NCBI RefSeq assembly: GCF_022024235.1
Contig: NZ_CP091799.1
Span: 2,049,001 to 2,113,000 of the forward strand
DNA: 64,000 nt
Source of the DNA: Segatella baroniae B14
GTDB lineage: Bacteria; Bacteroidota; Bacteroidia; Bacteroidales; Bacteroidaceae
Reading direction: 5' to 3'
Position numbers and translations under genes: made by a program. This document shows positions 58,770 to 62,225 of this stretch, piece by piece (position 1 is the first letter of the stretch; every line of letters begins with the position of its first letter). Below the pieces are notes generated by a model. It was not told where the DNA came from, made no database searches, and saw nothing but the letters and a program-made list of their open reading frames with translations.

Positions 58770-59762
58770 TTAGCAAAGACTCAACATCTTCTCGATAGGC
58801 TTAACTGCGTCTTTGGCTATAACAGGATCAACCTCTACAGATGGCCAACCGTACTTCAAAGTATTATAAATCTTCTGAAGCGTATTCATCTTCATAAATT
58901 CACACTCATTACAGCTGCATCCTAAGCTACCCTCGCTAACTTCTGGCGGTACAGGTATAAACTCAACTTCAGGACAAGAACGCTGCATCTCATGCAAAAT
59001 ACCAGCCTCTGTAGCTACAATGTACTGCTTTTGCTCAGGATGAGCCTTTGCATAATTGAGCATAGTAGCAGTACTACCCTTAATATCAGCTACTGCTAAT
59101 ACAGGTGCTTTACATTCCAAATGAGCCATAACCAATGCTTCAGGATTAGCCTTTTTAAGCTTAATAATCTCTTCTACAGAGAATTTCTCATGTACATGGC
59201 ATCCACCATTCCAGAGAAGCATATTTCGGCCTGTAACGCTGTTAATATAGTTACCAAGGTTGTAATCAGGACCAAAGATAATCTTTTCATCCTTAGGGAA
59301 AGCATTAATTACCTTTTCTGCATTGCCAGAAGTTACAACACAATCGGTAAGAGCCTTGACTGCTGCTGTGGTATTGACATAACTTACCACTTTATATCCT
59401 GGATGCTCTTCCTTATATTTTCTCAGATCTTCAGCCTTACAACTGTCAGCTAGACTACATCCTGCATTAAGATCAGGAGTAAGCACAATTTTATCTGGAC
59501 TAAGAAGTTTACAGGTTTCTGCCATAAAATGTACACCACACATCACCATGATATCTGCATTAGTTTCGGTAGCCTTACGTGCAAGTGCTAAAGAGTCGCC
59601 TACAAAATCAGCAATATCTTGAATATCACCAATAGTATAGTAATGGGCCAGAATAATGGCATTTTTTTCCTCGCACAGACGCCTGATTTCTTTCTTCAGA
59701 TCAATTGATTTGTCTACAGGTTCATCTATATAACCTTTCTCCATCCATTCTGTTTTCATCAC
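58770..59762 (-). CDS. nadA: Quinolinate synthase
   Basis: [4Fe-4S] enzyme condensing iminoaspartate and dihydroxyacetone phosphate to quinolinate in de novo NAD synthesis. HYYTIGDIQDIADFVGDS (near residue 40) is the family opening. Cysteines suited to the cluster lie in MCGVHFMAETC (near 94), NGGCHVHEKF (near 186) and GCSCNECEFM (near 284). 330 aa is typical. nadB and nadC are not next to it. Its upstream region is the DnaA-box cluster. Confidence 0.95.
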   Translation of the reverse strand: MMKTEWMEKGYIDEPVDKSIDLKKEIRRLCEEKNAIILAHYYTIGDIQDIADFVGDSLALARKATETNADIMVMCGVHFMAETCKLLSPDKIVLTPDLNAGCSLADSCKAEDLRKYKEEHPGYKVVSYVNTTAAVKALTDCVVTSGNAEKVINAFPKDEKIIFGPDYNLGNYINSVTGRNMLLWNGGCHVHEKFSVEEIIKLKKANPEALVMAHLECKAPVLAVADIKGSTATMLNYAKAHPEQKQYIVATEAGILHEMQRSCPEVEFIPVPPEVSEGSLGCSCNECEFMKMNTLQKIYNTLKYGWPSVEVDPVIAKDAVKPIEKMLSLC

Positions 59763-60202
59763 ATCAATATTATTATATTCTATATTATTTATTTAAAAGA
59801 AAAATAAAATGGGATATTATGATACGCTGTGGATTTGTTTATATCTTTTAGCCTCAAAATTTGGATATTTCGTTATCCACGTCTTATGATGGGTTATCCC
59901 TATGATATTATAAGCATATAGCTCTGATTTATGAGTACTTAGATAAGTTTTCCACATTATCCCCTTTTGGTGCAAAGGTAATAAGTTTATATCTTTTATC
60001 CATAAAAAAGCGTGGAAAAGTGATATAAAAGTTTCTCATAAATGTGTTGATATCCACATTTTTTGTCTGTCCAAACTGAGTGTGTTATTAACTCAAAAGT
60101 TATAAGTTATTTATGAGGAGTTTTTCCATAGGGTTATCCACATAGTTATGAGTAGTCTAAAATAAGGTAATTTTTGTAGTTCCTGTTATTGGGCTATTTG
60201 GT
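59763..60202. other. Candidate chromosomal replication origin (oriC): DnaA-box cluster
   Basis: Gene-free 440 bases between divergent-facing nadA and the GT9 gene. DnaA boxes against TTATCCACA: perfect at 60134-60142; 8 of 9 at 59873 (TTATCCACG), 59948 (TTTTCCACA), 59996 (TTATCCATA) and 60050 (ATATCCACA). 7 of 9 occur at 59828 (minus), 59860 (minus), 59894, 59957, 60011 (minus) and 60122. Most face the same way. GTTTATATCTTTTA occurs exactly twice (59837, 59985). ATTTATGAG occurs three times (59927, 60035 minus, 60109). The left edge (59768-59810) is almost pure A/T and could be the unwinding element. dnaA itself is not here. Confidence 0.65.
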
Positions 60203-60260
60203 ATTCTAAAAAAAGAGAGGTGTTACTCCATCCAGAAGTAACACCTCTCTTTTTTAGAAT
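60203..60260. terminator. Strong hairpin terminator after the GT9 gene
   Basis: Arms of about 24 bases (ATTCTAAAAAAAGAGAGG ... and its complement ending TTTTTTAGAAT) with a 9-base loop. It separates the minus-strand GT9 transcript from the DnaA-box region, which would keep the putative origin free of read-through. The 71 bases between it and the gene hold nothing recognisable. Confidence 0.85.
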
Positions 60261-60331
60261 ATAAAAGGTAGTATCATATATACTTACTTGATGTGTTTGA
60301 TATAATACATAATAAGTATAAGATAGATATG

Positions 60332-61387
60332 TTATTTTTGTATCAAAATATGTTCTACACGATTGACGATAAGATCTGGACTAATGTTTTTCATGCATGA
60401 GAAATCTCCTCGTAAACATGGTTTATTGCCGTAGATGCTACAAGGTCGACAAGGTAAATCTATTTGTACTGCATTATCAGGACTCTGCTTCCAGCCTAAA
60501 AAACCGGCATACGGATGTGTTGCACCCCAAACACTTACTACAGGGATATTGGTGAGTGATGCCAAGTGCATATTTGCACTGTCCATACTAATCATGACAT
60601 CAAGATGACTCATAAGAATAAGTTCTTGCATGATTCCAGATAAAGCTCCAGATGCATTTATGCAATTTTTATATTTTTGAGTCCACTCTTCAAATTGTTG
60701 AGTTTCTTTTTTCCCTCCGCCAAAGAGGAATATTCTAGCTGATGGATGATGGTTAATCAGTGTAGCGATAACCTGTTCCATTAGTCTAGGTGGATAGATT
60801 TTACCCTCATGGGCTGCAAAAGGTGCGATGCCTATCCATTGAGAGAAGGCTTGCTTCTTACCGATGATATGCTCTGGCAAAAGTCGAAGATTTCCGCCTC
60901 CAGGAGGAAAAATAGAAGTAAAGTTCATTTGGATAGGATAGCCAAGTTCGGCAAAGACATCAGCATAATTCTGAAAGGCTGTAGGCTGCTGTATCAACTT
61001 TTTATTATTAAAGGAACATAGCATATGTTTACCCTTGCGATGCTTGTCGATATGGGCTACTTTAAAATTATCTAGATTAAATCGTAAGCGTAGAAAATTG
61101 GAACGTAATACATTATGTAGGTCGGCAATCGCTGTAAAGTGCTTAGCCGTAAGTCGGCGATACAGTGCATTTAGGCCCTTAATACCATGATATTCCTGTT
61201 TTACGTCTGCCTCCATAAAACTTACATTAGGGGCTAGATTTTCATAGAAAGGTCGTGCAAAAGGTCGACTGAGCATAGTAATCCTTACATTTGGATACTG
61301 TTTAGCCAGTGAGTAAATCACTGGCACAGTCATAGCTACATCGCCTATGGCAGAGAATCTTATAACTAGGATATGCTCTGTTTTCAT
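60332..61387 (-). CDS. Glycosyltransferase family 9 (LPS heptosyltransferase-like)
   Basis: 351-aa cytoplasmic/peripheral enzyme of lipopolysaccharide core assembly. GT9 features: ILVIRFSAIGDVAMTVPVIYSL at residues 6-27, LSRPFARPFYENL, IGIAPFAAHEGKIYP near 180 and MISMDSANMHLASLTNIPVVSVWGATHPYAG near 270-300. The Cys-rich tail (CRPCSIYGNKPC, near 315) is typical of Bacteroidetes members. Sugar donor (ADP-heptose or other) is not determined. It lies 14 bases after the DUF4254 gene, clearly the same transcript. Confidence 0.88.
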   Translation of the reverse strand: MKTEHILVIRFSAIGDVAMTVPVIYSLAKQYPNVRITMLSRPFARPFYENLAPNVSFMEADVKQEYHGIKGLNALYRRLTAKHFTAIADLHNVLRSNFLRLRFNLDNFKVAHIDKHRKGKHMLCSFNNKKLIQQPTAFQNYADVFAELGYPIQMNFTSIFPPGGGNLRLLPEHIIGKKQAFSQWIGIAPFAAHEGKIYPPRLMEQVIATLINHHPSARIFLFGGGKKETQQFEEWTQKYKNCINASGALSGIMQELILMSHLDVMISMDSANMHLASLTNIPVVSVWGATHPYAGFLGWKQSPDNAVQIDLPCRPCSIYGNKPCLRGDFSCMKNISPDLIVNRVEHILIQK

Positions 61388-61401: not shown

Positions 61402-62007
61402 TTATTTTTTAGCGTATAATACAGGATTTGTATCTGTATCATTATACATTTTCATCTGGCGGTATACCTTCATATACTTTCTACCAGCTTCAATATCATC
61501 GAGCAGTTGATCAATAGCTATAGATAAATCTTTTTGCTGTTCGAGTAGGACATTGAGTTTAGCCTGACATTTAGCAATATGATCAGCAGAAGCATCATTA
61601 CGTTCAGTCTGTTCCTTCATGTGATAAATTTTTAGTGCTAGAATGCTGAGACGATCAATTGCCCATGCAGGACTTTCAGTGTTGATGCGTGCATCATCTT
61701 GTATTTTAATCTCCTTATATTTATCACGGAAATAAGAATCAATCTGCTCAACTAAGTCGGTTCGGTCCTGATTACTCTTATCGATGCGACGCTTCAAAGT
61801 AAGAGCTTCAACAGGGTCGATTTCGGGATCTCTGATAATATCTTCGAAATGCCACTGTACAGTGTCAATCCAATTTTTGAGATATAAAATGTAATCGATA
61901 GTATTCTCGGCATAACGATTTTGGATGGGAGTGTCAATATTATCCTTTACATGATAATCTTGAATAGCTTCGTTAAATATAACGTTACAATGTTCTGAAA
62001 ATGACAT
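61402..62007 (-). CDS. DUF4254 family protein
   Basis: 201-aa mostly helical cytoplasmic protein of a Bacteroidetes family of unknown function. The open frame extends to 62175, but the extra 56 residues are Cys/Phe-rich and unlike the family. The start at 62007 (MSFSEHCNVIFNEAIQDYH) fits. Conserved-looking segments are NTIDYILYLKNWIDTVQWHFED (near 40-60), RRIDKSNQDRTDLVEQID and SPAWAIDRLSILALKIYHM. It sits directly upstream of the GT9 gene, so a role in LPS core synthesis or its control is likely but unproven. Confidence 0.85.
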   Translation of the reverse strand: MSFSEHCNVIFNEAIQDYHVKDNIDTPIQNRYAENTIDYILYLKNWIDTVQWHFEDIIRDPEIDPVEALTLKRRIDKSNQDRTDLVEQIDSYFRDKYKEIKIQDDARINTESPAWAIDRLSILALKIYHMKEQTERNDASADHIAKCQAKLNVLLEQQKDLSIAIDQLLDDIEAGRKYMKVYRQMKMYNDTDTNPVLYAKK

Positions 62008-62140
62008 ATTTAAGTATAAATTGATTTGTTCACAAAAGTAGTTATTTATTTGTAAATAAGCAAATAATTGGAGAAAAAAGCAAAAAAATGCACATTTAGG
62101 GTACCCCTGTGCAATGAAAGTCGCTTTTTTTTCAAATTTA

Positions 62141-62172
62141 TTTGCTATATTGGATTTAATTTTGTTTCTTTG
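62141..62172 (+). promoter_or_regulatory. Two-box promoter of acpP-fabF-rnc
   Basis: TTTG (62141-62144), 20 bases, TTTCTTTG (62165-62172; one base off TATCTTTG). An overlapping TAATTTTG at 62157-62164 matches the -7 consensus but has no TTTG at the right distance. Leader to acpP about 50 nt. Confidence 0.7.
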
Positions 62173-62225
62173 CACCCGAATTTTTTAATTAGAAATCATT
62201 TATAAACATTTTAAAAGTTACAATT

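Follow-up and report, generated by a model that had tools for sequence, protein, structure and literature searches.

A very probable replication origin beside nadA on the main replicon of Segatella baroniae B14

Background

Where does replication of the main replicon of Segatella baroniae B14 begin? The question is raised by an intergenic gap beside the quinolinate synthase gene nadA, which an earlier reading of the sequence alone (here the sequence-only reading) had proposed as the origin because of its many DnaA boxes. Circular maps are drawn with oriC at the first base of dnaA in the excerpted text of PMC5771137. Origins far from dnaA have been predicted elsewhere in Bacteroidota, for Elizabethkingia (excerpts of PMC8994065) and, by Ori-Finder, for chromosome I of P. 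intermedia, such a distance being described as common in Bacteroidetes in the excerpts of PMC4755523. The P. intermedia case is at odds with the earlier statement that origins away from dnaA are poorly described in Bacteroidales. We found no paper that connects oriC with nadA in this group, a link that DoriC tables or supplements (e.g. the Ori-Finder 2022 lineage indicator genes) may record.

General features of the locus

The genome (assembly GCF_022024235.1) has 3.63 Mb in two contigs, C1 (NZ_CP091799.1) of 2,485,805 bases and C2 of 1,144,609 bases; no open frame of more than 80 codons crosses the joint of C1. The window, that is, the whole stretch of DNA analysed, comprises 64,000 nt of C1 (2049001-2113000), and the features discussed below are listed by their position within it in Table 1. 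On C1 the candidate origin lies at 2.109 Mb, with its antipode at 0.866 Mb. The sole dnaA gene found, at 1.741 Mb of C1, is 368 kb away and thus not adjacent; it encodes a protein with N-terminal, ATPase and C-terminal domains.

Table 1. Features in and around the candidate origin (positions in the window)
Feature	Position	Strand	Basis
Candidate oriC, intergenic, from nadA to the hairpin	59763..60202		Box cluster, skew switch, conservation upstream of nadA
nadA (quinolinate synthase), near-constant neighbour	58770..59762	-	PF02445, E 8.1e-116
A/T block, probable DNA unwinding element	59763..59812		90% A+T, computed stability
Box AAATCCACA, spacer GCG, then TAT-CAT-AAT; conserved array edge facing the A/T block	59816..59836	-	Alignment
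DnaA box TTATCCACG, 1 mismatch	59873..59881	+	Motif scan, alignment
DnaA box, 2 mismatches	59894..59902	+	Motif scan
Two adjoining boxes, 1 and 2 mismatches	59948..59965	+	Motif scan, alignment
Conserved 29-base core element, consensus AAAAGATATAAACTTATTAAYTTTGCACC; not a DnaA box	59969..59997	-	Alignment
DnaA box with 1 mismatch, in contact with the core element	59996..60004	+	Motif scan
Box TTTTCCACG; mostly AAGTTTTCCAC in relatives	60011..60019	-	Motif scan, alignment
Overlapping head-to-head boxes; palindrome TGTGGATATCCACA in several relatives	60045..60058		Motif scan, alignment
DnaA box with 2 mismatches, at a 12-base step from the perfect box	60122..60130	+	Motif scan
Perfect DnaA box TTATCCACA, start of a tandem array at 12-base steps	60134..60142	+	Motif scan
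Long hairpin, probably terminating the GT9 gene	60202..60261 (about)		Folding; absent conservation in aligned relatives
GT9 glycosyltransferase gene, neighbour in part of the relatives only	60332..61387	-	PF01075, E 3.4e-15

Both gene names given earlier, nadA and GT9, are correct. Beyond the GT9 gene and on the same strand lies the gene of a DUF4254 protein of unassigned function (61402-62175, minus), which may form a unit with it. The strong terminator said to flank the gap is real as a hairpin (-22.3 kcal/mol folded as DNA, z -11), and no conservation of it was seen in the relatives aligned. At the other end of the gap, the almost pure A/T block that had been noted beside the boxes was confirmed; within the region, stability is lowest in the 50-base segment starting at 59767, and only 0.02% of window positions have a lower computed stability.

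The DnaA-box cluster

If one mismatch is allowed, the 440 bases of the gap contain five DnaA boxes, all on the plus strand; with two mismatches allowed the number is 13, their start positions falling between 59828 and 60134. The earlier count of one perfect box (60134, +) and four one-mismatch boxes (59873, 59948, 59996 and 60050, all +) was reproduced, and that of the two-mismatch boxes rises from six to eight. Markov-1 sequences of the region carry on average 0.19 boxes with at most one mismatch and 2.30 with at most two; as none of 3000 such sequences reached 5 or 13, the cluster is indeed far above chance.

A 440-base frame was also moved in 20-base steps over 40 sampled 20-kb stretches and the rest of the window, about one quarter of the genome. 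Among the 42,290 frame positions no equal of the cluster was found by either count, and the runner-up frames have eight boxes (at most two mismatches) and three boxes (at most one mismatch). A stronger cluster elsewhere is therefore absent from the sampled stretches, and the core profile described below matches the genome at a single place. The perfect box itself occurs 55 times genome-wide, against 46 for its reversed control, so it is the clustering rather than the number of TTATCCACA that is special. Homologous tandem boxes 12 bases apart are present at two other loci (L129 and L247).

At the edge of the array that faces the A/T block, a box and a 3-base spacer are followed in the window by the triplets TAT CAT AAT. 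A basal unwinding system would call for three or more NAN triplets no farther than 16 bases from a box. In a first test, runs of DnaA-trios were shorter than in shuffles in 52 Prevotella loci. A looser scan gave runs above the shuffles in six of eight loci (P < 0.05), these loci having been picked by eye after the sequences had been viewed; other spacers gave similar runs, and a spacer of three was not clearly better in Prevotella. We make no claim to a DnaA-trio element here.

Nucleotide skew

Skew on C1 was sampled in 26 stretches of 20 kb (of about 124 possible) and in the window, which gives a resolution of tens of kb. If the origin is set at the candidate and the terminus at its antipode, 23 of the 26 stretches show the predicted sign of GC skew, and 23 of the 26 that of AT skew. 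The equal-arm fit places the best origin at 2.100-2.110 Mb by GC, by AT and by both together, with a score that 0 of 2000 permutations attained; the result was identical whether the window stretch was trimmed at the candidate or left whole. When the terminus was left free, the origin came to 2.10-2.13 Mb and the terminus to 0.86-0.87 Mb, AT alone giving a terminus at 0.74-0.85 Mb, slightly short of the antipode. The sampled skew thus puts the origin in an interval that includes the candidate, and not elsewhere. Over the 10 kb on the nadA side, AT skew is +0.105, as expected, and GC skew +0.038, against expectation.

The best-fit interval also includes the homologous place in four other genomes. 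In one of them (G004) the equal-arm fit gives 2.660-2.675 Mb and the locus lies at 2.666 Mb, GC skew being positive in both of the stretches sampled closest to it on the nadA side, some 11 and 76 kb away. In another (G108) the fit gives 1.500-1.520 Mb, around a locus at 1.510 Mb, and the signs are as expected in only 11 of 17 stretches by GC and in 13 of 17 by AT. The other two genomes belong to other genera and were tested at nadA itself, found at 434-435 kb within a best fit of 425-450 kb (G007) and at 578.5-579.4 kb within one of 570-590 kb (G006). The latter genome, whose nadA start has no box cluster upstream, was meant as a negative control and failed as such, its best-fit skew origin being also at nadA; this outcome favours the wider reading that the origin lies beside nadA beyond the genus. 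For Prevotella communis (G710) the best fit is 0.015-0.190 Mb, 19-194 kb from the locus (3.548 Mb, 4 kb before the circle end), and nearly ties with it (score 1.203 at the best fit and 1.186 at the locus).

Conservation in relatives

The relatives compared are the best 80 of 467 nadA loci, whose titles nearly all name Prevotella or a related genus. Within 600 bases upstream of nadA, 77 of these best 80 have at least three boxes with at most one mismatch and 57 have at least five, so that loss of the boxes in close relatives is not what is observed. Box density is 9.06 per kb upstream of nadA versus 0.45 in the rest of the loci, and positions relative to nadA recur in bins near -370/-360, -200 and -140. 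Three loci fall below three boxes: L091, with two boxes and the 29-base element kept, and L049 and L071, with no box in 1.5 kb upstream of nadA. In Leyella stercorea the box arrays upstream of nadA are expanded beyond those of other relatives, with 13 boxes in 440 bases at one locus (L061) and 18 within 1.5 kb at another (L098).

In 20 of the 80 loci a GT9 gene is found upstream, in the same orientation and no more than about 1.2 kb away, some loci being too short to show it, and nadA is a near-constant neighbour. The landmark is therefore nadA, and not the nadA/GT9 pair suggested by the sequence-only reading.

The window was aligned with 76 of the 80 loci (n=77; L049, L050, L051 and L071 were left out). 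Read on the nadA strand, the consensus order is: boxes in tandem with a 12-base step; TGTGGATATCCACA or a similar sequence, with two head-to-head boxes; AAGTTTTCCAC; AAAAGATATAAACTTATTAAYTTTGCACC; TTGTGGATAA; more boxes; a last box with a 3-base spacer and TATCAT; the A/T block; and the start codon.

The genomes of L049 and L071 each have a strong core match apart from that nadA (E 2.7e-21 and 1.9e-22), and those of L050 and L051 have weak core matches only (best 2.4e-4 and 6.5e-7). In the genome of L071 (G716), 10 boxes, the 29-base element with one mismatch and an A/T block precede a DUF3108 gene, the module being situated between that gene and the one for the ribonucleotide reductase small chain (L247 1290-1830). 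As the full arrangement stands there before DUF3108, the module keeps its form without nadA. By eye, an origin module without nadA was also seen beside a flavodoxin-like gene (L248 1380-1972).

The core element

The 29-base element is nearly invariant and lies at about -233 from nadA. With at most three mismatches it is present within 400 bases upstream of nadA in 72 of the 80 relatives, and at one place in the genome of Segatella baroniae B14. No printed account of it was found. A profile of the core (127 positions, 49 sequences, E <= 0.001) matches 217 of 247 genomes of the genus, some sources of the 49 being also among the genomes searched, and Segatella baroniae B14 once, on C1. Outside the genus, seven of the 28 genomes searched from other genera or families are matched, all weakly (best 3.3e-6).

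The 20-base core of the element, used as a pattern allowing one mismatch, is found in 69 of 199 genomes of the family and in 78 of 295 in the order sample. Within the family it matches 24 of 28 genomes in the genus and, almost always with one mismatch, 45 of the 171 from other genera. Because of these matches the pattern was rejected as a diagnostic marker outside the genus, and the 127-position profile separates the genus from outsiders better.

Interpretation and alternative explanations

The gap combines the features by which a bacterial oriC is recognized, namely a box cluster above chance, an unstable A/T-rich element, a skew switch opposite the terminus and an arrangement conserved in relatives. 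From these sequence characters we predict, with a probability of about 95%, that 59763-60202 is the oriC of the 2.49-Mb main replicon. A skew minimum elsewhere, a stronger cluster elsewhere and loss of the boxes in close relatives had been named in advance as grounds for abandoning the interpretation; none of the three was encountered in the stretches sampled and the relatives compared, and it is supported.

It could be argued that the gap is only the control region of nadA, with the core element as promoter and the boxes allowing DnaA or another protein to regulate the gene. The element does include TANNTTTGCA, pointing at nadA, its right part fits a Bacteroidota -7 promoter motif, and the -7-type motif TANNTTTG shows enrichment ahead of genes in this genome, at 237 of 546 starts versus 79 when shuffled. 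However, a -33 TTTG is absent from the window at the usual distance from the element, and the left part of the element would seem to be conserved beyond any apparent promoter need. A promoter would also not account for a best-fit skew origin that includes the locus in five genomes, nor for G716, where the whole arrangement stands before another gene, and is thus not merely a nadA promoter, while nadA itself lacks upstream boxes. We consider this explanation very improbable. The same box cluster might instead titrate or reactivate DnaA, in the manner of datA or DARS, near the origin and not at it. A box cluster alone is no proof of an origin, and the sampled skew resolves only tens of kb; against such a role, an A/T unwinding block adjoins the cluster, the skew switch falls within sampling error of it in several genomes, and the core profile has just one match in the genome. 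These observations leave the datA/DARS-like role with a minimal likelihood.

If the gap is the origin, initiation may proceed as follows. DnaA would occupy the tandem boxes toward GT9 together with those surrounding the core element, and would extend toward nadA. Strand separation would take place in the A/T block, which adjoins the nadA start codon; the helicase would be loaded there, and two forks would depart in opposite directions.

Occurrence beyond the genus

A search of thirty genomes from other genera and families found nadA in 22. Of the resulting loci, seven (L158, L159, L162, L165, L166, L169 and L170) align by eye with the Prevotella arrangement, showing an AAAGTT(T)TTAAYTTTG-like motif at about -200 to -255 and the edge of box, spacer and TAT/CAT; the boxes are more degenerate in most of them. 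In G006 the same box-spacer-A/T edge lies on the other side of nadA, downstream (L168 1000-1400), which suggests that the orientation of nadA relative to the origin has changed while the two remained neighbours. A similar edge is present at L153, L163 and L172, and nothing clear was seen by eye at the remaining 11 of the 22 loci. Three genomes from one genus of family f99 (L130-L132) have the full arrangement, including a perfect box near -384. The one-contig genome G446, from another family, carries the arrangement at nadA.

That the origin lies beside nadA throughout the order is plausible, the skew fits covering only two genera outside this one. More tentatively, and with the odds somewhat against it, a single ancestral origin module beside nadA may be common to the Bacteroidales. 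It would be marked by the element (AAAAGAT)ATAAACTTATTAAYTTTGCACC, not a DnaA box, placed between two box arrays and facing an unwinding edge of box, spacer and (YAT)n. The element would act in initiation itself, through origin transcription or as a site for DnaA or an unnamed initiation protein, and the module would move between neighbours as a unit.

The second contig

Two Rep_3-type initiator genes are found on C2 (1.14 Mb; L245 and L246) and none on C1. The skew of C2 is ordered (p 0.001-0.007), with a best-fit origin at 0.26-0.27 Mb by GC and by both measures and at 0.14-0.15 Mb by AT; one of the Rep_3 genes is located at 0.154 Mb and has imperfect tandem repeats nearby. C2 has the appearance of a second chromosome equipped with a plasmid-type initiator. 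For the small chromosome of P. intermedia, the excerpted account reports that no clear skew transition was seen (PMC4755523).

Significance

The origin described here is ordinary in kind, a DnaA-type oriC, and is convincingly placed; what raises it above the routine is a stable landmark and, distinct from the DnaA boxes, an element that hardly varies. Many guts and rumens harbour Prevotella and Bacteroides in abundance. Chromosome starts in the group can be drawn at dnaA, and an origin on the nadA side would be diagnosable from sequence. A fixed zero point beside nadA would be of use for growth-rate estimates from sequencing coverage, for genome orientation and for replicating vectors, and the core element offers a specific target for studying initiation in the phylum.

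Comparison with known origins

A close likeness is with P. intermedia OMA14, as described in the excerpts of PMC4755523: the predicted oriC of its first chromosome is a 476-base locus (1,498,452-1,498,927) with multiple DnaA boxes at a GC-skew transition, far from dnaA, and this organism too has two large replicons, with a Rep_3 gene on the smaller. Neighbouring genes and a core element are unnamed in those excerpts. The basal unwinding system, as presented in the excerpts of PMC8287927, shares with the present locus the succession of a box, a 3-base spacer, NAN triplets and an A/T block. It differs in that the triplets here read TAT/CAT in the box strand, unlike the published trio consensus 3'-GAT-5', and in that the Prevotella consensus keeps only two triplets constant. 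With bacterial oriC in general, as collected by DoriC and Ori-Finder, the locus has in common the box cluster, the A/T-rich unwinding block and the skew switch. It is distinguished from them by its position away from dnaA and by a 29-base element, distinct from a DnaA box, that is almost without variation.
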